Shown here piece after piece: positions 2,561 to 60,680 of a DNA stretch of 64,000 bases. This DNA comes from Marchantia polymorpha subsp. ruderalis. Taxonomy: Eukaryota > Streptophyta > Marchantiopsida > Marchantiales > Marchantiaceae. The notes beneath the pieces are model-generated. The model did no database searches. It was not told the DNA's origin and worked only from the letters and a program-made list of their open reading frames with translations. A program made the translations under genes and the position numbers. Positions within the stretch are counted from its first letter, which is position 1. Each line of letters opens with the position of its first letter. The DNA is taken from positions 23,476,001-23,540,000 of the forward strand of contig AP031354.1 of NCBI GenBank assembly GCA_037833965.1, given 5' to 3'.

Positions 2561-2771
2561 TCTCGAGTTATACGCCCGATTCACGGGCCCCGTCACCGCG
2601 GGGTCCACTGTCGTGCTGACGAGGCCCACGCTGACAGCGCAATGAGGCCCTGCAGAAGCGCCACGTATGGGCCGTGGACGATCCCTGCTGACGAGACAGA
2701 GCTCCGACCACTTGGAGAACAGTCTCGCTGAGAAATCCCCTCTACCTCACGCCCTCCTCCGCCACCGCGAC

Positions 2772-2779
2772 CTTATAAG
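2772..2779 (+). promoter_or_regulatory. TATA-like element upstream of Fe-ADH
   Basis: CTTATAAG lies about 225 bases before the ATG at 3002, followed by a moderately pyrimidine-rich leader. The motif is its own reverse complement, so it could also serve a minus-strand transcript. This is inferred from sequence and position only. Confidence 0.35.
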
Positions 2780-3001
2780 CCAACGGGCCCTGCGACTTTC
2801 AACGCATCGAGCTGTTGTTTGTGTTCATTAAGAGAGCAACTGGGATCTTCTGATCGTGAAAAAAGTCGAGTGCGGATCGACATTTCTCTTTTCATCTTTG
2901 AGCTCTGATCGCTGTGTGTCTTGATTCGAGAGATTTCTGTTTTACTGCAATTCAAGCGAAGCCGTGTCGTGAATCCCTTCAGGCATATTGCGCTGGGAAT
3001 C

Positions 3002-5792
3002 ATGGCGGCTTGCATGCCTCTCGCCTGCAGTGTGCCTTCCGTTCGCGTGGGGGCCCTTTCACAGGTCATTCCCAATGGCCCCTCGGAGGTTCGGATTCCC
3101 AGTGGAGCTTCAAAGTTTGCACAACTCGTCGATTGCTCGGGTCGAGGGCGAAAATCGCACCGCACCGTTACATCGTACTCCTCGATCGGCATGCGCATCA
3201 GCGCCACATTGGCGCAGGAATCCCAGCAGACCGAGGTTCGATTCTCTCCTTTGTACGCAAGCTCGAGTACTTTCCTCGCAGGCTCATTGAAGAACAGTCG
3301 GTCGTGAATTGAGGGGAACAACTGATGAAGAAACGAACTTGTGCTCTGGCTGCTCTGCTATATTCCATTGACTTTCTGCTGTTTCGCTCTCAGTGTCTTA
3401 GACCTACTTAGAGAAATGCTTAAAGGGCCACACTTGATGGTTTTGTAGTTACAGCGGGAGGTTCTACATGACAGTCTCACTAGCACTTTGATGGATGATC
3501 CCACACAAGCCTCGCATGGAGTCAATTACCACCATCCCGATGCAGGAACAAACGGCTACGCGTTCTTCATGCCCACATGTAAGTCCTCCAAAGAGCAAAA
3601 TTGAGTCCATTCGGCAATCGATCTGAAAGTCCAGCCGGCATACGCTTATTCTATTCCCTAATCCAGTAGCGACGATGAGCTCCACAAATTACTTTTCTTT
3701 CTTCTGGGGCTTGCGATTGTTCTCACCCGAAACCTGTCTTCATTGACTCTTCAGTAAATCTTATCGGTGTGGGTGCTTTGAACGGAGCCGGAGCACAAAT
3801 CGCTGAGCTGGGATTCAAGAAGGCTCTCATTGTCACGGACAAAGTACGATCATATTGTCTCAATGTTTCTAATCTCTCCGAGACCAAGGTTTAGTTTTTC
3901 ACAGTCCATAGAAAAAAAACAAAAAAAACAGAGGTTTAGGTCTAGTTCGGTCTAGTTCGGTCTTCAGTTTTTTTTTTGGCGGGTAATAATCGACGGGACT
4001 CCAATTGCAGGTCTTGGTGAAGGTAGGGGCTGTTAACGCCATCATCAAGGTGCTGGACGAGATCAATGTGAAGTACTCAATTTACGATGGCACGGAACCC
4101 AATCCCACCGATAAGCAGGTCGATGAAGGAGTGGCAATGTTGAAGAAAGAAGAGTGCGATTTCATCGTTTCATTCGGGGGCGGATCACCTCACGACTGCG
4201 CCAAGGCTATCGGCGTCTTAGCCACCAATGGAGGTGAGAAATTTGGCGTGAGCTGAGGAATCGGTGCATGTAGACAGCGAGGTCGGTTGTTTTGGTCCGG
4301 AATTTGTCGGGCTCGATGAGGAGAATTAGACGAGGTTCCAACTGCTTCGTTGTTGTCTATGCAGGGAGAATCCATGATTACGAGGGTCTCAACAAGACCA
4401 AAAACGCCATGCTTCCTCTAGTCGCCGTGAACACCACGGCTGGAACCGCTGCTGAGCTGACTCGCTTCGCCATCATCACAGACACCAAGCGACACGTGAA
4501 AATGGCAATTATCGACTGGAAAGTAACTCCCACTATTGCCGTGGACGATCCTACGCTCATGGTAGGCCGCACAACGATGTAGCTTAATTCGCTTACTTGC
4601 GGAGCTCAATCTTTCGTGTGCTCTCGGTTAAATTTTACTGACGAGCAGCGAATCCAATTTCTTCTCAGCGTACCTCCAAATTCATTCGAGTTGTGTACTC
4701 ATCCTTCTTCTCGGATTTTGGCGCTCGGTCTGTAGGTCGGAATGCCCAAGTCTCTGACTGCTGCCACGGGCATGGATGCGTTGACCCATGCGATCGAAGC
4801 GTATGTATCCACTATCTCGAATCCTGTCACCGATGCATCTGCACTCCACGCCATGAAGCTCATCAAAACCTACCTGCGGGACGCAGTCACGGACGGCAAG
4901 AACTTGAAAGCTCGGGACATGATGTCGTATGCCGAGTTTCTGGCCGGGATGGCTTTCAACAGCGCCAGTTTGGGATACGTTCACGCCATGGCTCATCAGC
5001 TCGGTGGCATGTACAACTTGCCTCACGGAGTTTGCAATGCTGTGCTTCTGCCCGTCGTTCAGGTACTGATCAGGGTTTAATCATTATATGGGTTTAGCTC
5101 CTCTCATGTCGATCCAGAAATTGACTCCGAAAGTCTGTGAGCATGCATGTTGTTACTGCTTGTACATTCCAGATTCTGGATGTGTTCTTTGCTCTGATTG
5201 GTCATTTCTCCTAAGGTTCTCTACTCACCGAGCAATGCACTGGGCTGCAGGAGTTCAATGCCAAGAAAGTACCGATTTTGTTTATAGACATTGCTGAAGC
5301 TTTCGGGTATCGTGATATTGGCGAGAACGCCGATTTGGCAGTGAAGGTGGTTCTGGAAGAGATCAGGTCAGTCACCCGCTAAAGCTTTCGAACGCGTGGG
5401 ATACATACATCTCAATTGAGCTCTACCGATCGACCGAAACTTTCAAGGCAATAACATATTCGTATGCTATACTTGCAGATCCTTGAGCAAAGATGTTGGT
5501 ATTCCCAAGAATTTGGCGGAGCTTGGAGTCAAACCCGAAGACTTTGAAGAGCTGGCAGAGAATGCTATGAAGGTAAACTCTGCTCTGGCTTTCGGAGCCT
5601 AATCTCCAGGACCAGTGGCATGCTGAAGCCTCTGACAATGAGATGCTGACCCTTGTCCTGACTCCTGTTCTCAACACTTATTATGGCTTTCCGTGCATGG
5701 ACTGTGTGCAGGATGCGTGTGGCTTTACCAATCCCCGTGCTCCGACCAAGCAGGAAGTCGTGGAACTTTTCCGTCTTGCTCACGAGCAGTAG
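3002..5792 (+). CDS. Iron-containing alcohol dehydrogenase, nine exons, N-terminal extension
   Basis: NAD(P)-dependent oxidoreductase of the Fe-ADH (group III) family, interconverting alcohols and aldehydes. Exons: 3002-3235, 3455-3578, 3755-3843, 4011-4233, 4365-4561, 4736-5062, 5251-5366, 5479-5572 and 5712-5792. All introns are GT-AG and all phases agree, giving 494 aa. The core starts near residue 114 ([15 protein letters not shown]). The cofactor motif GGGSPHD is at 205-211. The metal ligands are Asp303 and His307 ([13 protein letters not shown]), His372 (LGYVHAMAH) and His386 ([13 protein letters not shown]). The C-terminus is [19 protein letters not shown]. The ATG at 3002 has a strong context (ATCATGGCGGC); the open frame continues upstream but without another ATG. 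Residues 1 to about 100 are rich in Ser, Ala and Arg and poor in acids, which suggests a plastid or mitochondrial transit peptide (inference). After LLP the usual His is Val. Flowering plants generally lack this class, as far as I recall. Confidence 0.93.
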
Positions 5793-7951
5793 TGAATGAG
5801 CAGCTGTTACAATGTCCGATCCGGCGAGCATTCAAGTCAAGCTAACCTTTCTCAAGCACAGACACAATGGCCAAAAGAAGAAGAAACTCTCTAGCTCTGA
5901 CAGAAGCTTATTGAGAGGCACTCTCTAAGGTATAGACTGAACACGATACAAAATGACAGAGGCAGTGCAGAAACGACACGACGGTGGAAACATCGCTTGT
6001 AGATAATGAGGGGTGGTGACCAATGCCTGAATTAGAATGGGTGTCATATATCCAATAATCCAAATTCTGAAACTTCATAAATTGTAGAATGTAAAAACAG
6101 AGCTTTTTCCACATCTCTAATGCAGATGGTTTTTTGACAACAAACCGAAGACTCCTTAACCTTGACTATCGATTCACCCTCGTCTTGGAGTTCAGGCTCA
6201 TGGTATAGGAAGCTCAGAGGAAGCTATGATCGAGGATTTAGTCGCATCGCCTCATCCAAAACAGCGTTAGAGTTATGTGAGAGAGACAGCAAAATATTTA
6301 GCTAGAAGCGCTTCGAAGCTGAGAGCATTCAGCAACGTGGACTGAAATACACAAGCCAATCTCTTGTGCATTTCCAATTCATTAATACGAACGAGAGCTG
6401 CTTGAATTTTGTATGATATTTGGACAGGCATCATGGTTATATACTTTTCTTTGATGGCTCTTGCAAAGGGCACGTCTGAATTTCTTCTAACATTTCTGAG
6501 TTATTGAACTGCTCTTTAAATAAGAATTTGAATGAGCGAATTTCCAGGGTGGACTGACTGAACACTTCCTGAGGTTGTTTTTATTTGCCCTCAAGAATTT
6601 GAAAGTTGCTTTCTCTCAAAAATTGTCATGAATTTGTTATATCTCTAGAAAAATGGGAATTGAGCAAAATTAGAAAGATTGGCCCGTTGACATTTTATCA
6701 AAGGCCATCGGTCTCCTCATGAAGGTGAAATGTGCTATCTTGTCGAAACAGTCAGAATTGTATTTGCACAGGTTTTACATCTTGTCCGTGGTTCCCTGGA
6801 TGTAATGAGTTGTTCCTTGTATTCTAAAGACTGCAGTGTGTATCCGGTATTCTAATGCTCATCTAATGTTAAGGTAGACTCTCTACTTCGCTTATTCGGT
6901 GTTTTATACAAAAACAACTCTCTGCTACCATATGCGATTGATTCTTAGAAGAACCTGAGTTACAAAAAATTGAGTATGAAGCGATATGCTCTTTTACTCT
7001 TCATTACAGGTTATATTTGTCATGTGACAACCTCTGGATATTACCAAGCGATGACATCTTTTTGTTTGAAATATTTATTTTTTGAGTTAGAAAGTAAAGG
7101 ACACTTTAGACGCGGTGGCATTCTTCGCTTGATCTTGAAATTCAGAAGATGACCTAAATGACGATATTTGACAATATGTACATTTTTCACAATAGCTCGT
7201 TGTTTGAAGTTGAAGCTTGTACCATCAAGTATGACATAGTACGTAGGAGGGCTTGTCACTCATGCTATGATGCAAGGAGCCGAATCAAGAAAATCTGCTA
7301 AAGTCTTAATACCTGCTGACTAGCCAGGACATGCAATAGAAAATTACCCATCTGCAGCTGGCCATTAATTTGTTAGTTTGTAATTTATTCTCCAAACATG
7401 AAAAAACTGCTTCAAATGATTAAGCACCCTGCCTGTTAACTTTCAAGCTTAAAATGTATTACTTGTTTTTTAGTTTGAGAGATTATGTTTCCAAAAATAT
7501 ATACTTTTAGTCAATATTTTCTCTTACATTTTCTTGATATCCTATATATTTGTTCAACGTGACAATTGAAAATAGAAAAACTAAATCAATTTTGAGAAAA
7601 TATGAATTTCAATTATATTTTTTGTTTTTTTCGTTTTTATTTTTTTATAGTTCTTTTTTGCTTACATAGCTATCAATTGACTTGAACAAGATTTTACTTT
7701 GGTTTTTTTCTAACAGGTATTGAATCATTTATATACACAAACATCCATTGCTTTTCAAGATTTACTTAAAGCTAAATTGGATTGAAAAATAAACATATGA
7801 ATCACTATATTTATAAACTCAAGATGTTACATTTGATTCAAGTATGTTTTAAAGTAGCTAGTTTTAAACCTTGTTAGGTTTTCTATAAAAGCAAGCTAGC
7901 CAAAGTTCTCAATGAACACTTTAGAGCTTTTAATCTATAAAGTTATCTGAA
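5793..7951. other. Intergenic, no gene seen
   Basis: This is the 3' flank of the Fe-ADH gene followed by increasingly AT-rich DNA (strongest at about 7380-7900). ORFs on either strand are short and without recognisable motifs. No RNA gene or clear repeat was found. Confidence 0.5.
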
Positions 7952-15230: not shown

Positions 15231-16705
15231 AGTCATCATCGTCAGGGTGAGAAATTTGGAAACGAGATCTCTCGCATATGGGGTCTGCAGGCATGACCAC
15301 AACAACTGAGCTCGAATCTATATCTCAGATTATCATCCATTGCACGAGGACCACGATCTGTGCACCTGTGACTGACTACGCTGGTGCCACCAGCTGCAGC
15401 AATTCAGAGAGCAAGATGTGAGATGAGTGAAACATACTCCTTCGACGTGAGCCAGGTAAGCTTGAGTCAGATCGTAAACTTGCCCATGAAGATGCTTGAG
15501 CTCGGCTTTTCTGTCAGCAATCAGGCTAAAGGTAAACCCATCCACTACTTGCATTTGCTCCGAAAACACGCGCTCTGTACCGATGTTCAAGTACCGTTTG
15601 AGCTCCCAGAAAGGATCACTGAAGCGCTTGACCGCGATGGTGGTGGCCAAGTCCAAAGATGAAGCGAACGCGATGTGTGGCCATGGCTTTGGAAGAGCAG
15701 ATGGCAGAGAGGCAAAGTCTACTCCAAACGCCACTTTTCCGATCACATCCAATGTCGCCCTTTGAAATAAATCCTGTCATCGTCGACAAGGCAAACACAT
15801 GTCAGGTCAGTTTGGTCTTGCCCAAAGTAATAATCGGCATCCGAGACTCTCTTTTCTAAATTGTTCCAGGAGTGCGAAATGTTTTGTGCCCATCCCTTTT
15901 CTTCGTCGACCTCAACCCAAAGGCTGTAGTCGGATCTGCAGAGGTTGGCGATGGGCAGCTCAGACCAGGAACCTCCTTGGACAACATAAGTGGTATTACT
16001 TACTTGGATGTCCACGGTGGTGCCTTTTCCAGCTACTTCAGCCAGAGGCCGAGCGATTGTACAAGTTTTCTTCTTCATTACAGCAGCAGTAAGGTCGCAG
16101 ACCGAAGGTTTGCAGAACTCCGAGGCCACCCACTTCCTCATAATCCACGACTCATGAAGCTCTTTCTGGCCCAGCAATACTTCCATGCGCTTGAAGAAGC
16201 CTTTGCCCTGTCAATCCAAGCCCATTACGACAGCACATCAGAGACACAGCCCATCACAAACTATGGTCTGCATGGAAGACGAGACGAGATCCGAAGGCGA
16301 ATTGGGCTGACGGGACAGACAGACCTTGCGGAAGTTGACGGAGTTCGTTTCGAGCAAGTACTGGACATTGATTGGATCCACGGTGCAGTAGAAAACTCGG
16401 CCCCAGGGCATGCGGACGTGAATGGTTTTGGCGAAGAGGAAGAACCCCAAGAGCCAATCGTGTAGATGACAGTAATGCGCCGAGATGTCGCGGACGCTGC
16501 CCAGCAAGGGCCAATATCTCGGCCCCAGACGAGCATTCTGCTTCAACCTGTAGAAGCAGACGCAAAGCACCAGAAGCACGATGACACAACCCAGCTGTAG
16601 AATGTAGCTGCTGGACTCGTAAGCCGTTCTCACCATGGCCTGGTACGTCTGGAAGTAATTCTGATACTCCTTCTCCGAGTACGAGAGGGCCATTTGCTCC
16701 ACCAT

Positions 16706-17381
16706 GTTCAGAATCTCCGAATCTTCGTAAGCCTTTGGTGTTTTGAGAAGCAGTTTGCTCTTCACCGTGCAGAATCACGAATTTGTGTGCGCGTGTCTAG
16801 AGCATCTACATGTTGCAGACGAGGGCTTAGTAAAGTGCCTTGCACCCGGCGATTTCCACAACCACGAAGGGATTGATTGTAAGCTTAGCGACTGCTGGCC
16901 ACATGCTGCCTTCAAGACTTTCTCTGATCCAACAACTTCACTGGGCATGCAAACGCTCCATGGCTCCGAATTGAGATTCAAAAGTGGTGTGGCCGTTGAA
17001 TGGCATCTGCTTTCTGGTCGGTCTTTACGGGCTACTTGAGTGTACAAGAGCATCCATAGCAAGGCCCAAACTTCAAATTATGGCACCGTTGAAACAGACA
17101 CGCGTTGTGAATTTCGAGCTTTGAACACGCGGGATGACGATGACGCTCGATGACGCTCGAATTCGTGCACGTTGGGAGCGATTTGATTTGAAATTCAACT
17201 GTTATGAAGGCCGCGGCACGAGGCTCGATGCCGAATTGGAAGGGGCGCGGGGCTCGATCGGGGAGAGGCTTCTTGCATTCTGAAGGAGCAGCAGCAGGAC
17301 GAGGAGGACGAGGCCCTGGCATGAGATGAGGTTGCGGAAGCGATGGTCGGTCTTTACGGGCTAGTTGCATATATATACATA
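16706..17381. other. No gene; short direct repeat
   Basis: This is the 5' flank of the P450 pseudogene. The string TGGTCGGTCTTTACGGGCTA occurs near 17016 and again near 17344. A 10-base unit (GATGACGCTC) is doubled at about 17139-17158. No coding feature is recognised. Confidence 0.4.
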
Positions 17382-28912: not shown

Positions 28913-31905
28913 TCAGGCGGGTGGATGATCGTGATGCTGCGCGTCCTGATCATAATTCCAGAAGAGTCCCGAGCTGAAGTTGCGTTCGGCTGTCATGTAT
29001 TGGGAAGTGGGTATGTGGTCGCTCAGAGGGCGTTGCACAGCTTCCTCGATGAAATTCTCCAGATCGAACGAGGCGTCGGCAGCCGCTGCGGCTGCTACCG
29101 CAGCTGGCAGCAGATCACTCGCCTGATTCGGTGCCAATGGCGACGCTTGGACGTGTACAGTGAGATTTTGAAATCTCGAGTCGATGCTCGGATTGTCCAG
29201 CACCGAACGTCGCTGCTGCTGCTGCAGCTGTTGCGCCAGGATGAGATCGAGCGCATTCTGAGCTAATCCTGCTCCTCCGGCCCCCGCCGCCTGCTGCCAT
29301 TCGGGTCGCGTAAGTTGCATGGCTGCTGAAGCTACCACGGGAATCATGGATGTCGAAGCCTTTTCCAGCGTACCTTCCTCTGCCAGGGTCCTCCAGCTGC
29401 TGGTGGCGACGGATGGTACTTCCGAGCCTCGCCAATCGCAATTCACGTCCAAGGTCAGAGATGGCCACTGGCTTCCTCCTGAGATCATGTCGTTCTCGTC
29501 CCGCGACCATACGTCGGTATTTATCGAAAATTGCGAAGAGTAGACAATCTGCTGCTGCTGCTGATGCTGCTGCACCTGTTGTGGAGGCATCGGTACCGAG
29601 ACAGCGGCAGCTGCTGCGATGACAGTGGCTGTTGCGGCATGTGGCGGGGCCGCAGCAGCAGACTTGGGCGCAGCGGGCGAGGAGATGGAGTCTTTTCGAG
29701 CGTCCGAGGGAAGCGAGGGGACTCGTCGGGGCACATTTGCAGCTTGAGCTGCTGCAGCAGAGCCGGGCACCGGGCCGACGGAATCCGGGAAATTGAGCTT
29801 CGCACGCTGACCTCGGAAGTCGATGGCAGCTTTGTCGTAAGCTCTAGCAGCCTCCTCGGGAGTGTCGTAGGTGCCGAGCCACACGCGCGTTGCTTTCTTC
29901 GGGTGGCGAATTTCGGCAGCCCATTTTCCCCAGGCCCTCTGGCGCACCCCTCGGAATTTCTTTCTTTTCGCGGCACTGGCGGATTCTTCGACTGCGGAGG
30001 ATTTTTCCTCTGCAAACACCACGCAATCAAGCACACAGAAGCCTCCGATCAATACTCATGGATATGGCCCGACCTCCCAAGTCTCACATATGATTTCTGT
30101 ACCTCAACCTAGATCGAACGATACGAGACGATACGGGATGAGATGAGACGAGACGATGCGATGGAAGTCGCTCTTTTTTCTTCGACCTCGTCTGCAACCA
30201 CTGCACCCACAGAACAGATAAGAACTCCACCACGGCTCGTTATCAGCTCCCCTCACCAGAATCACAGCTTCAATCAGAATCACCTCAACATCGTCACGAC
30301 TTACTTACCTCGGCAGCGGACTCCGGGACCCTCTACAAACAATGGGTCACCACACCACACCACACCTCGGGGCAAAACTCCTAACGAACTCACACGACGA
30401 AGCAATGAAAGCACAATGAGGGGACGATCGAACGAATGGTCGATGCGGAGAATCCAGTCCATGCCATGTGCCATGCCCGTCCCACACGGTCCCGAAATAG
30501 AGTGCTCACTACTACTTCCCCTAGAACCACCACCACTAGTTCTACTACTACGACAACTACTGAGGAGGAGTAAGTAACCAAGTACATACCTCGAGATTCG
30601 TCTACCTAGAAGCTAAGTTAGTTGAATACTTGCCTTTTTCGGTGGTGATGCGATTGCCTCTTTTATGGAGTAGACAAGCACCTTTGTAATCATTCTAGCA
30701 GCGCTAGCCGCATGCGCACCTTCTGGCACTCACCCTTTCATGCATGCTAGCCACGGAACCTCCGGAGTACTGTACTTCATCATCCCGAGTTCAGTCTCAG
30801 TGTCGGCCTAAAGCACTGTTCCATTGTCCTGTATTCAAATCCTCCGAACTCTGATACTGAACTTGGAACTCGTATTTGTCAGGCCATCCGAATTCACTCA
30901 CTTCTCGGAAAATGCAGTCCCTGAAATTTGCGAAGTTCGGTATCTCACTCACTCACAGTCTCTCTCACATCAAACCAACCGACCAACCGACCGACCATAC
31001 GGTAGATCCCAATAATGCTCATCATACGACAGCGTTGATCTCTTCCAATTCCAACATCATCATCATCAACAACAACAACTTCACTTTTTCACTTCTTTCC
31101 ATCTGATCATCTGCATGTGCGTGCGAGAACTATTAGTGTGTGTGCGTGTGTGTGTGGGTGGGTGTTGGAGTTGAACGGACTCGAAGAGAAGGTCGGGAAA
31201 GAGTAGTGTACCGAAATTGTGCAGAAGAGGTCTGAGAATTTTGCTTTTCTGCCGTAAGGACCGAGAGAGAAAGACTCTACGGAAATGCAGACAAGACTGG
31301 AGGACGGTTAGAAGGAGAGTACCTTCGCCGGGCCCAGAGGGAGCTTGGAGCTCGGAGGTGGAATCTGCCGAACTGTAAGAACTCATGGAATCGGCTCTTC
31401 CCACTCTCCGTGCCGAGTTGCGTGCATCGCTGGCCGTGCTCTCTTCAGGAGCAGCTCCGGCCTGATGCAAACCACCGAATGTCCATCCGCCGCCGCTAAT
31501 TCGATTCTGGTCGCCCGAATTGGCCGCGCTCCAGTTCGAAAAGCCTTGGATCGTCTGGAGGTCCGAGAGGTTGTCGTCCCCGGCACCGAGATTCGAAGTC
31601 GCCCCGGCGAACCTCGGAAGCGGTGCAGCTGCAGCTGCCGCCCGAATGACCATCGTCGACGAGACGCCCTCGATCGTCTCCAGCCCCGAAACCGCATTCA
31701 GCGTCGGGGCGTAATTCAGGAACTCCGGATCGCCGAGGCTGTTCCACTGGCCCATGCTCGCGGCGCATCCCTCGTACAGCGTCTGCATTGGCGCCTGCTG
31801 CGCTGGCCTCGCCCACTGTCGGTTCCCTTTCTGCTGCTGCTGCGCCTGCTGCAAATGCGCTTCGGGTGCTGCGGATTCGGCGTCCTCCAGCAGACTGTCC
31901 TCCAT
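28913..31905 (-). CDS. AP2/ERF-domain transcription factor, two exons
   Basis: DNA-binding transcription factor of the ERF subfamily, expected in the nucleus at GCC-box-like sites. Exon 1 is 31323-31905 and starts [17 protein letters not shown]. Its frame stays open upstream but has no earlier ATG. Exon 2 is 28913-30009. The 1.3-kb intron is GT-AG and splits a Glu codon in phase 1 (...[14 protein letters not shown]). The product is 559 aa. The single AP2 domain lies at about 213-268: [19 protein letters not shown], then [19 protein letters not shown] and GQRAKLNFP. The WAAEIR and Asp residues place it in ERF rather than DREB. The usual RQRPW is RQRAW. By eye the domain is closest to ERF group X (ABR1-like), which is tentative. 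The rest is low-complexity: Ala runs, Gln runs ([17 protein letters not shown]) and acidic patches, as in activation domains. No EAR repression motif was seen. Confidence 0.93.
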
Positions 31906-53775: not shown

Positions 53776-55715
53776 TTAAGAACCACATTCGGCTGGAGCA
53801 AATCCCAAACGTTTCTGCTGGCGATCATACAGCACATGGGCGTTCTTCGTTTGATAATTTCTGGTGATGGTTATTGCGTCATCGTTGATCATGGCCAAGC
53901 AGAGGTGCCCCGCTTCGTCGACCTTCACAAACAGGTTATCTGGCGGAATTTTCGTAAGCAGCATCGATGAAGTGGAAGGTTGCATTGGGCAACTTTGGGT
54001 TTTGAACACCAGAAAGGTTGTAACAAAGTTCAAATTCAAAGTCAGGGTCACAAGATGGGTTGACTTGAGGATAATCCATCACCTCTGCTACAGCTTGAAC
54101 TACTGTTCTTAAAAAGTCCACAACCCATGAAGAGTGTATGTTGTACCAGAGTCGATCATTGTTCCGGGGTTCTGAAGTGCCTCACTTGGTATGTCCCAAC
54201 TTTTTTCCTTCGACATTCATCCCTGTGAGGTGCAGCAGGTAGGGAGGGAGTCATGCTGAAGCTCTCCTTGTAGGTGGCATATACGAAGTGAGTGTAGCGC
54301 ATTCTGCTCGGACAAACACCAGAGGGCATCATGTCAGTCCAGCAATTTTGGGCTTCTTAGACCTTTTGAGTGAGGGTTTATCGTTAGATTTGTGTTCGGG
54401 TGATGACTCTGTAGACGATGCAGAATTTTATGTCTTGCGTTTTTTTTCCTAATGCTGTGATTCTCCAAATCCTATGTGCAAGAAAAACCTAATCTCATCT
54501 ACAGAACATGGACCGTGTGAATGATGCAGTTGTCTAGTCACTCTGCCGTGAATTTTGCAAACCCTTTCAGAAAGGGTCTGGTCTTCCTCTGTGTTCAAAG
54601 ACTGATCAGGCTGGACATTATTTTCTTCTTGGATAGACAAGGAAACCAAGTCAGATGCATCCATTCTCAGAAGTTTCTTCTTGACCTCGAAAGGAAAGGT
54701 AGGTGGAGCTCTGAACTGCGAAATGGTAGAAAGAATACTAACTCTCTGTAGCGGGCAACAGCTCCTTCTCCAAAAATTATTTCACTAGCTTTGGATCCTC
54801 TTTCGGTGAAAGGCACAAAACAGGTGGAGAACTTATTGCTCAGGGCTGAAACCTAGCTGGTTTGGAGATTACTCCGGTCCCTGTACCAGGCCCACGAGTC
54901 CATCTGGCTCTTCTAAGGTGCCCTAATTTCTGTGTCCACAGCCGAAAGTAACCGAAAGCGAAGTTGTTGAACTTTGACTGAGATCCGATGCTGATGGTAA
55001 GAGTGATGATCTCCAGAGATACACTACCTCTGGTCTTCAAAGAATGCCCACAGCTCATGTTGTATTGGCAGTCCCCTTCCGATGAATCCTCACAGGGAAA
55101 ACTGTTAATCAAGTCCCGGCATCGTTTATGGTCACACTTGAGAGTGTGGTAGGACGACGATGTAGACGGATTGAACAAAGCAGTCGGCTGCTTGAAGCAC
55201 GGATCCTCGGCACATGATTTGCACTGCACCCAGGTGAGGTCGCTTCCTGTACCCACAATGGCTATGAACTTCTGAGGAGGGCTTCCTAACGTACTCGTAA
55301 AATGCTGTACTCACTTTCTGTGCGCCATTGGTGACTCGTGTGTTGTTTGAGCTGACAATAACGAGTCTGAAACTACTCTGTTTTCCATTTTTGAAGGCGT
55401 TGTGCTGCTCTATGGAACTTCCCAAACTCAGAGAAATTCTCTGCCAACGATTAGTCGGCCTTGTGGAGTGTGCAAGATGGATTATCTCGAATCGGACATA
55501 CGGATAATCTCGAATCTTACTCCAGGTTCAAGAGCTACAAGTAAATGGACTTCCCCGGGCACGAAGGCAGCGACGAGGAAGACAGCTGCTTGAACCCAAC
55601 GAGAATAATTCGAATGCGCTAGGGTTTTACGATCTGCTGCTATTAGAAACGGGGAATGTCGAACACCTGAAGCCAGCCAGACAGGCCGTTTTGCACAAGG
55701 TTTGAAGACTTTCAA
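53776..55715 (-). pseudogene. Plant A1-family aspartyl protease (CND41/nepenthesin-like), decayed
   Basis: Secreted or plastid-type pepsin-fold protease family. Read downstream on the minus strand: a hydrophobic leader (VQAAVFLVAAFV) and LEPGVRFEIIRM (55482-55715); a propeptide-like stretch with a stop; then LGSPPQKFIAIVGTGSDLTW and VQCKSC (about 55210-55290). The first active-site motif is GTGS instead of DTGS, so the catalytic Asp is lost. Next come FNPSTSSSYHTLKCDHKRC and FNNFAFG. A frameshift and two stops interrupt FGCGHRN and DGLVGLVQGPE. ALSNKFSTCFVPFTERGSK and IIFGEGAV lie near 54720-54845, and LLHLTGMNVEGKKL near 54200. The second active-site motif IDSGTT is intact near 54160. After another shift come FELCYNLSGVQNPKLPNATF, then PPDNLFVKVDEAGHLCLAMI and HVLYDRQQKRLGFAPAECGS at the end. 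At least four lesions make function very unlikely. Confidence 0.88.
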
Positions 55716-56894: not shown

Positions 56895-57524
56895 CTACTT
56901 AACAGTGAAACGAATGCAATCATCTTGAGGACCACGCTGAGCAACTGGCAAGACGAGGCTGTTGTGGCTGAAGGAAGCGGCCGTGCTGCAAAGCCTGTAC
57001 TTTCCAGGAGACAGGCCTTCGTCAACGGAAGCGAACAGCCTTTCGTCGCCATCGGCAGCCGTATTAAGTCCTTTGAAGAAGTCGAAATCCGTGGCGGAAG
57101 GCACTAAATCTCTGCCCCGTAATTTCTGGACGACGATGTGAGCGTGGCCTTTGATGAGGCCATCTTTGTTGAGCTGCTGAGAGGATGTGTAGTACTGAGT
57201 CTCGGGATCACTGAAGAAGCCCGTGTCCAAGTTCATCATCTTGACAATCACTTGAAACGCCGTCCTCGCTGGAATTGTGGCACCACTCTGGGGCTCGAGA
57301 ATCAGAGTGGAGGTCATGTGATCTCTGGACGGGATTTCTCCGAGCTGCGTGGTGCTGCAAGTGCCTTGATCGGACTGCAGGTTCTGCTTGCCATCTGCCC
57401 TCTTCAGCGAGCTTTTCTTGCACACTTGACCATCTGGCGATCCGGACAGTGAGTTGTCCGCGAAGGCGGCGTCCACCGTCAACCCCAGAGTCAACACAAC
57501 TACGAGAACTGCGTCCAGCCTCAT
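56895..57524 (-). CDS. Small secreted protein resembling a fungal family, intronless
   Basis: A 209-aa ORF with ATG at 57524 and stop at 56895-56897; the frame is open further upstream but without ATG. Residues 1-22 form a classic signal peptide (LDAVLVVVLTLGLTVDAAFA), so export is expected. The mature part has four Cys (35, 56, 179, 203), likely two disulfides. The core begins near 64 (IPSRDHMTSTLILEP), followed by NLDTGFFSDPETQYY (99-112), GHAHIVVQKL (126-135), FFKGLN (149-154), GLSPGKYRLCS (170-180) and PVAQRGPQDDCIRF (193-206). From memory these motifs, in this order, are typical of small secreted proteins of ascomycetes and basidiomycetes with no assigned enzymatic role. I know of no flowering-plant counterpart. 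The coding region shows no intron or lesion. Transfer from a fungus is inference and needs a search. Contamination is unlikely in the middle of a contiguous plant sequence. Confidence 0.85.
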   Translation of the reverse strand: MRLDAVLVVVLTLGLTVDAAFADNSLSGSPDGQVCKKSSLKRADGKQNLQSDQGTCSTTQLGEIPSRDHMTSTLILEPQSGATIPARTAFQVIVKMMNLDTGFFSDPETQYYTSSQQLNKDGLIKGHAHIVVQKLRGRDLVPSATDFDFFKGLNTAADGDERLFASVDEGLSPGKYRLCSTAASFSHNSLVLPVAQRGPQDDCIRFTVK

Positions 57525-57980
57525 GATGCTGCCGCCTCGAGCTCGCAACACCCAATGAACTTTCGGAGGAGCCTCTGAGTTCCTGCAAGTCAAGCAGTTC
57601 ACAGGCGAGTGAGTTCATCACTATTCTATGACACGAGAGACTGAATCTTGACTTTTGATTTTGAAATTATTTGAAGCTGTTGGGATTGATCTATGGAATT
57701 CAGCAAGCCGTTCAAGGAGTGGTTACCTGCTGCAGCACTACGGACGAGATTGAGTCCACCGTTGAAAAGCAAGTCCGTGGAGATGAACAATTACGAACCG
57801 GAATTCCAATCAGGAGGCAGCTGAAGATCGATCTCTGAGGAGATATTGGAGACTCAAAAGAGACTTCCGATAACGCTTCACTTCCCGATAACGCTTCGAC
57901 TCGTTTCGTCTGCTCGATCGTCAATCACAGTTGTCGGATGATGATGAAGTCAGAAGATCGACCTCGCAACTTATACTCCA
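57525..57980 (-). promoter_or_regulatory. Upstream region of the secreted-protein gene
   Basis: On the minus strand a TATA-like GTATAAGT lies at about 57970-57977. Between it and the ATG there is a donor-like CAGGTAACC (about 57720-57728) and an acceptor-like CTTGACTTGCAG ending near 57583, so the 5' leader may carry one intron of about 140 bases. This is suggestive only. Confidence 0.25.
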
Positions 57981-60680
57981 GCTGGTGACGATCAGGGACG
58001 CGCAGGTGATGTTGCTCCACCACCGTTCGGACACGCCCATCGCTGAGGACGAAGGAAGTTGAGTGGAGAGAGTGGGGCAGTGGAGTCAAGGCGATTCAGA
58101 TCTGTAGGGTTGAAGTTGTAATCTTCTTTTGAAGCATTTGGACCGTACTGATGATTGAGGCCTCATGGGCTCATACTTCGCCTTCAAATGAGAGCTGGAC
58201 TCGGTTCGAGCCTTTCACTTCCGCGGAGTGGGAGGGAGGCTGGGTGACGACATGGCCGAGAAGAGATACTGGAAAGAGTTATGAGCGTAGCTTATTTGGA
58301 CTCACACGGTCATAATTGTGGACTCGAGGTGAAAGGTGTGCTGAGTGGAGAATGTAGCAGCCGCAATTTCGCTGTCATAGATTTTAAATTTTGATTACCT
58401 GTCATTAAATCCCAGATCGTGTTCAGAACTCACACATGTACGACAGGATCCTCGGACGACATTCTTCTGAATGGCAGACTGTGGTGACGCTCGTGAGGTC
58501 AGCTCCGATAAAGCCTAGTGAGTGTGTCGGTACAGCTGAAACCGGCGTGACGTTCTGGCGCCCAGTACTCGAAAATAAGGAAGCAGTCATTTGGATCCAG
58601 ATGCTGGATCTTAGTAGGCTCTTTGATACATCGATCAATGGTCCTTACAGATGAGCTTGAAGTGAAGCAAGATGGTTTACTTCTCTGGGCCGACAGACAG
58701 ACAGCCTGATGAACGGAAATGCTGCAATTTGAGCAGATGCTGAATGCGCAATGTCCGACAATACTCTTGACTGGCCTATCAAACTGGTTTCATTCCCGTG
58801 ATCCATAAACAAGACCTAAATCGAGGATCGACTTCTTGCTCGTCATCTGAACTTCTGCTTCAGTTTCGAGAGCCAGATTACCTCAAACAACATTCCATTC
58901 TGTCGATGGTGAACTCCCGAAGCAAAACGCTTACAGCTGTGGACTTGTATCGAACCTTCTGTTCGCCCTCAGCTCCTGTATTCTGATGTACAGGCTAGGA
59001 TTACAACCTTCAGGAGTAGGAATGTGAGGGAGGATGCTCAAGTCCACAAAGAAGATAAGGGGACAGAAATATGTTTGCGTCTGGCGCATATGTTTGAGAT
59101 CAGGAAACCAACCAGGGGATGCCATTGACAGGAATGCAATGTCCTATGGCAATCACACGTCTGAATGTAAAGAACACAACTTGTTGGGCATCTGAGCAAT
59201 GTTACGATATATTCGAGTCTTTGGGATCTATCATATGTTGCTACAAACAATTGAAAGCTACACATTCACGATTTCATCGGACAGCTGCAGCTTTTGCTTA
59301 TTCTCGTAATGATAGTCTCTTCTCTCAACCCCGATTCAAGTATTTGTGAGCTTGACAAACTAGTTAGAGATTCAGATTGCAGGTCGAAAAATTCACAACA
59401 CTCAGAGTTACAATGCAAATCTTTAAGCAACTCTGATCCTAATCAAGTACGTTCCTGTTCGAGCCAATGACGCCGAATTTAGCTGAGTTATCTAGAAGAC
59501 ATTACTTCCTCAAAGTCGATTTCTCTCAACATTTACAGCTTTTATCAATGTAGTCCAGCGGGGAGTTCATAATATTAGGCTCTCAGATAAACTTCCATTA
59601 CGTCGGAGGGTGGTGTTTCAAGCACCACTGTCCCGTCAGCAAAAGAGGGATTGGCCTTTTATATATGCGTATAGACTTCGTTGTTTCGTGAACAACTGTC
59701 TCCTGATGTACTGGTGAATTCCGTTTAAGTTTTAGATGCTATGTGAAAATTATGTTCTATCCCATTCAATATGTTCTGGTCATGGGTTTTTCTTTTACCG
59801 ATGAATCTAATCTCATACCAGAATGTAGCAATTTATACTCAGTGTGACTGTGACTACATCACTGCAGTAAGCCTAACAAGACTTCGTAAACAGATCTGAT
59901 GTTCCAAGATTAAATTTCACCCAGGAGTTTACAGTACCTCCTCATCACAAACTATTGAGGATGACCAAACCATTAGTTCTGGTGTAATGGACGACTCGAC
60001 AGAAGCAAACTTACTACAAGAGGAATTTTTTAAGATGGCGGATGGTGGTAGTCTAGCCCAGAGAATCAGCTATATGCCTACTCACAACATGAACACCAGA
60101 CTAGCATGATATGCTGTAAGTACTCATCATCAACTCTCCCATCATCTTCAAAATCAGCTTCCGCATACACGTAGTAGCTCCTAAGTAGATCCAATCATAG
60201 ATCCTGAATATTCACTTGACACGATCAGGTTTCAAGCTCTTACAATCTGATGAAGCAATGGAATGGAATGAAAATAATGGATCAAATTTTGCATTCTCAT
60301 GACAGATAAATGACGCCCGGTTCTTCGAAGCGTTAACTAAATTTAGTTTACAGAAACTTTGTTTTCATCTCTAGTGTTGGAGGTCACTGTGAATTCATTT
60401 GCTGAGATCCCACATGCCACAACAAGATCCTACGAATTTTCGACTTGTACAAATGATGGGACACACATTCAAGCACACAGTCTATTGTCATGGAATATTT
60501 AGTGGTTACGTAAGTATTTAAATAATCAGACCGGTAGAGGGAATTAACTTGTTAAGGCTCCTCGCACATAAGTTTCGCTAAGTATGGGGATTGTTGTTAG
60601 GAGATCCAGGGTTATGGAGTTCGAGTTAGTGCCCATGACTTCAACTAAAGAACTGCGAATATCATGGAGAGTAGTTAATG
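57981..60680. other. Gene-free stretch
   Basis: Open frames are short. Two opposing frames cover 58423-58654, neither with a recognised motif. No RNA genes or repeats were noted. Confidence 0.4.

Follow-up and report, generated by a model that had tools for sequence, protein, structure and literature searches.

Locus and encoded protein

The analyzed window is a 64 kb stretch of Marchantia polymorpha subsp. ruderalis DNA (C5:23476001-23540000), in which the gene for a predicted secreted protein, henceforth referred to as P0001, is embedded within a 33-Mb contig (C5) of the plant assembly. The features discussed below are listed with their window coordinates and, in brackets, the evidence for each.

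28913..30052, minus strand: open reading frame with an AP2 domain, a host-type gene of the same window (Pfam)
54840..55256, minus strand: aspartic-protease-like pseudogene fragment (Pfam TAXi_N), neighbor of P0001 (Pfam and frame comparison)
56895..57524, minus strand: intact coding sequence of the 209-residue secreted-type protein P0001, stop codon included (open reading frame and composition)
57126..57149, minus strand: GHAHIVVQ, a GHxH motif with His127 and His129 (sequence, compared with DUF4399)
57459..57524, minus strand: signal-peptide-like N terminus, P0001 residues 1-22 (sequence and hydrophobicity peak; cleavage by eye)
57406..59064, strand unassigned: segment duplicated in three partial copies, comprising the first ~40 codons, the 5' leader and the upstream flank (DNA alignments)
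57605..57735, plus strand: 131-nt stretch that all three copies lack at one shared junction (alignments of three copies, junction letters seen for two)

The P0001 reading frame runs from 57524 to 56895 on the minus strand and consists of an ATG start, 209 codons and a TAG stop, with no internal stops. Its GC content by codon position is 0.55/0.43/0.64, compared to 0.42 for the window, which is a coding-like pattern. Among 60 sequences of 64 kb generated by a first-order Markov model, 1 reached an ATG frame of 209 residues, and the longest ATG frame of the window is a different one of 274 residues. Length alone is thus an event of about 2%, so that the case for a real gene rests jointly on length, composition and signal peptide.

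Hydrophobicity of P0001, taken as the 11-residue Kyte-Doolittle mean, peaks at 2.97 from residue 5 and reaches a maximum of 1.29 past residue 30. The signal peptide would be cleaved at residue 22, between A-F-A and D-N, a site that was read by eye. The mature part contains the motifs NLDTGFFSDP (residues 98-107), GHAHIVVQ (126-133), FFKGLN (149-154) and GKYRLCS (174-180), followed by PVAQRGPQDDCIRF at residues 193-206. Four cysteines (residues 35, 56, 179 and 203) and four histidines (residues 69, 127, 129 and 187) are present, while tryptophan and the N-glycosylation sequon are both absent from all 209 residues. A complete reading frame, a signal peptide, four cysteines and this set of motifs had been described in the first-pass annotation, and all of them were seen, the signal peptide by hydrophobicity and by eye. 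The coding part had also been described as free of introns and lesions, which agrees with the uninterrupted frame of 209 codons. The missing intron is not diagnostic, since 34 plant aspartic-protease relatives likewise consist of one long open frame each.

The aspartic-protease-like neighbor is a relic, and the P0001 reading frame is intact. The open frame of the TAXi_N fragment is 156 residues long, compared to 391-635 residues for the 34 other genomic matches scored (E <= 1e-5). The description of the neighbors of P0001 as pseudogenes therefore holds for this fragment, the sole neighbor checked, and the proposed maintenance of the gene stands only in the sense of an intact frame beside a decayed neighbor. 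No Pfam match was obtained for five other open reading frames scanned in the window. Open reading frames at 15333-16765 on the minus strand resemble pieces of a plant cytochrome P450 by eye; the three pieces scanned gave no Pfam match at E <= 0.001.

Searches of the plant's own genome covered 241,466,482 bases in 9 contigs. A six-frame search returned one full copy of P0001, together with matches of 91% to residues 1-45 at C6:10.576 Mb and C7:5.365 Mb. Apart from the N-terminal partial copies, no paralogue was found in this genome at E <= 10.

Partial copies of the 5' segment

DNA alignments identified three partial copies on two contigs (C6 and C7), with identities of 95-99% and with codons of P0001 in two of the three. 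The copy at C7:5.365 Mb aligns with 57406-57604 at 99% and with 57733-59064 at 98%, differing at 27 of 1528 positions (K2P 0.018). The copy at C6:10.576 Mb aligns with 57406-57604 at 99% and onward to 58148 at 95%, and the copy at C6:23.356 Mb, which is without codons, aligns with 57556-57604 and onward to 58823, both at 98%. A repeat of ~294 bp with TG...CA ends adjoins all three copies, lying on their upstream side as read on the plus strand and sharing their orientation, and occurs at dozens of genomic places. The extents of the repeat together with the copied 5' part of the P0001 locus are as follows, in local coordinates.

C7:5360001-5370000 (L006): 3712-6417
C6:10570001-10580000 (L005): 6156-7927
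C6:23350001-23360000 (L051): 4258-6929

The alignments of all three copies are interrupted at one common point, with 3 bases overlapping. In plus-strand orientation, the missing 131 nt start with GCGAGT directly after CAG and end with CTGCAG. By eye, this stretch is interpreted as a GC-AG intron spliced out of an RNA of the plus strand, which would run antisense to the P0001 gene. A minus-strand intron was also considered and dropped, as no GT-AG or GC-AG boundary fits that strand by eye. The simplest reading of the copies is that an LTR-type element captured the P0001 5' segment and passed it through the element's own spliced RNA. The LTR class is a reading of the TG...CA ends, the direct repeats and their orientation, as target-site duplications were not seen by eye at the repeats on C7 and C2.

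Additional sequence is associated with some of the copies. A second genomic segment, of 468 bp and 98.5% identical between L006 (4409-4876) and L053 (C6:9120001-9126000; 2604-3071), adjoins the captured piece in both L006 and L005. Two or more host fragments may thus have been taken up by the composite element. In two copies (L002 1366-1674 and L003 1465-1773), the captured signal peptide and ~40 codons continue into foreign sequence, giving an open frame of 102 residues.

The arrangement of the copies suggests that the P0001 locus was resident before they arose. The copy pattern has no bearing on the function of P0001.

Searches for relatives and comparison with DUF4399

Relatives of P0001 were sought in prokaryotic, phage, plasmid and viral collections, Pfam, NCBIfam, PHROGs and the PDB; none of these collections is fungal or plant, so they cannot decide the fungal claim. 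No profile in Pfam, NCBIfam or PHROGs matched at E <= 10, and tblastn found no relative in phages or plasmids at E <= 1. Contig scans, which demand an exact match to short back-translated patterns and thus make only close relatives visible, confirmed no relative in viral contigs, and among the 53 pattern stretches matched in GTDB contigs none belonged to a relative of P0001. Literature searches of the open subset of PMC, made without the locus name of the gene, gave nothing that could be linked to it and may have missed a mention.

Several candidates were rejected. The only contig match to VAQRGxQDDC, in a gammaproteobacterial MAG (locus L007), is a chance match of 10 residues (tblastn E 0.18) facing a 161-codon reading frame on the other strand, and the genome to which L007 belongs gave no match to P0001. 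Among the 38 viral loci fitting a looser motif, tblastn recognized no relative (best E 0.56). Two sets of PDB matches, of 2 (best E 0.00057) and 19 (best E 1.5e-05), consist almost entirely of designed armadillo repeats and were also attributed to chance. The two PDB alignments inspected add up individual matches of 3.9-4.8 bits, and the sole ribosomal chain has an E value of 0.84.

The motif order P..GA, GHxH and L.PG....H is collinear between P0001 and DUF4399 (PF14347) in a forced global alignment, the family having been chosen post hoc. Using a DUF4399 profile built from 23 of 28 fetched bacterial loci, hhalign aligned 113 columns at 25% identity with a score of 12.69 and a probability of 1.3%. 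The score was matched by 1 of 600 shuffled sequences (mean 2.90, s.d. 1.91, maximum 14.07), and the reversed P0001 sequence scored 9.52 over 14 columns. An hmmsearch comparison gave an E value of 3.6, and its whole-sequence score was surpassed by 3 of 2000 shuffles; the best single-domain score was 1.6 bits, exceeded by at least 11 of 2000 shuffles. P0001 does not qualify as a DUF4399 member, as hmmscan returned no Pfam family at E <= 10 and the gathering cut-off of the family is 28 bits. The only DUF4399 match in the plant's own genome is on another contig and, at 17.7 bits, is also below this cut-off.

P0001 and the DUF4399 proteins both have a hydrophobic start and, in this post hoc alignment, may share the motif order around the GHxH core and a later histidine after the L.PG turn. 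As differences, the stretch that precedes GHxH is aligned as longer in P0001, P0001 has four cysteines, and its profile match is not significant. As a lead drawn from this weak resemblance, P0001 may be a secreted beta domain whose histidine site is metal-binding or structural.

Origin and possible role

The motif chain of P0001 may be that of a family of secreted proteins of fungi which frequently carry the misleading label 'ribosomal protein s17' and contain the motifs GHxHVV, FFKGxN and VAQxG..DD. This likeness is a lead and not an independent test of fungal type. Of the features of this family, small size and an N-terminal signal peptide, P0001 shows a length of 209 residues and a hydrophobic peak at residues 5-15. 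P0001 would resemble the fungal proteins carrying this label in being of secreted type, in having an unnamed function and in its motif chain, whereas it differs from them in being encoded in a plant nuclear genome.

PMC7441637 describes RL4_JR_05948 of Raffaelea lauricola as a predicted secreted protein with homology to 'ribosomal protein s17' that is 'highly conserved within fungi'. By its label, this protein would be a putative member of the family that P0001 may resemble. In PMC11503967 and PMC6921078, 'ribosomal protein S17' is an annotation of the 40S ribosomal protein S17.

We lean towards the view that P0001 is a single-copy nuclear gene, probably functional, with ancestry in a fungal secreted protein by horizontal transfer and an extracellular, non-enzymatic role in metal or wall binding. 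Transfer from a fungus to the liverwort is plausible. The presence of a single intact full copy in a 33-Mb plant contig, with an AP2-domain reading frame and a plant aspartic-protease relic in the window and no relative in the collections searched, agrees with transfer without proving it. A fungal secreted protein gene would have been acquired horizontally somewhere in the ancestry of Marchantia polymorpha. Its product, of ~20 kDa, with four cysteines that perhaps form two disulfides and with the GHxH motif, would leave the cell by way of the ER and function extracellularly as a non-enzymatic protein with a predicted beta-rich fold and putative metal- or wall-binding properties. A more specific role, in which a fungal effector-like apoplastic protein has been domesticated and is secreted by the liverwort itself, for example to serve as a decoy or to modify walls where plant and fungus meet, is conceivable on a rather speculative footing.

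The most serious competitor to fungal ancestry, though itself unlikely, is vertical descent of an ancient secreted protein, of plants or of eukaryotes at large, that would be shared with other green plants or algae, and with fungi by common ancestry. No Pfam model matches P0001, so its distribution cannot be read from a family page, which leaves room for such descent; against it, the motifs are not known from organisms other than fungi, and the genome holds no paralogue at E <= 10 beyond copies of the N-terminal part. It is doubtful that P0001 is instead specific to the liverwort lineage and its fungal resemblance spurious. In favor of this, no credible match was obtained in any database searched; against it, a chain of several specific motifs would be shared in order with the fungal family, and with no fungal collection among those searched the missing matches say little.

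Descent from a bacterial periplasmic protein of the DUF4399 type is suggested by the collinear motifs and by an hhalign score that 1 of 600 shuffles attained, yet it is very improbable: the hmmscan and hmmsearch results are below thresholds, the reversed sequence reached an hhalign score of 9.52 over 14 columns, and a match to P0001 was found in none of 299 genomes (E <= 0.01) sampled from one bacterial phylum, that of L007, without an internal positive control, whereas DUF4399 is carried by 27 of 100 genomes sampled from that phylum. A possibly fungus-like protein such as this one could also reflect contamination of the assembly by fungal DNA. This explanation is scarcely credible, because the gene lies within the 33-Mb contig and because copies of its 5' flank, 95-99% identical, occur at three more sites, on two other contigs. 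Embedding in a host chromosome is additionally indicated by the AP2 reading frame and the aspartic-protease relic in the same window.

Fungal ancestry of P0001 would have precedents in bryophytes. For Marchantia, PMC12890914 and PMC12448838 report two horizontally acquired groups, terpene synthases, for which a fungal source is stated explicitly, and fungal fruit body lectins. P0001 is similar to these in that horizontal acquisition is reported for them and proposed here; it differs in belonging to another protein family, and trees back the terpene synthase transfer whereas that of P0001 is a proposal. Other sources describe five fungal families acquired by a hornwort (PMC7027989), a likely Mucoromycota origin of the bryophyte macro2 gene (PMC7181705) and, as a mention, KP4 of mosses as an acquired gene (PMC11228847). 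Fungus-derived plant genes comprise about 20 well-supported events according to PMC12448838, and fungal infection assays exist for Marchantia, as stated in PMC12890914.

If the gene is of vertical descent or is unexpressed, P0001 would be an ordinary single-copy gene. If fungal ancestry is confirmed by a tree, a secreted protein of an uncharacterised family would join the short list of fungus-derived plant genes, and, if this reading is true, the reuse of fungal extracellular proteins by plants would become testable in a model liverwort.
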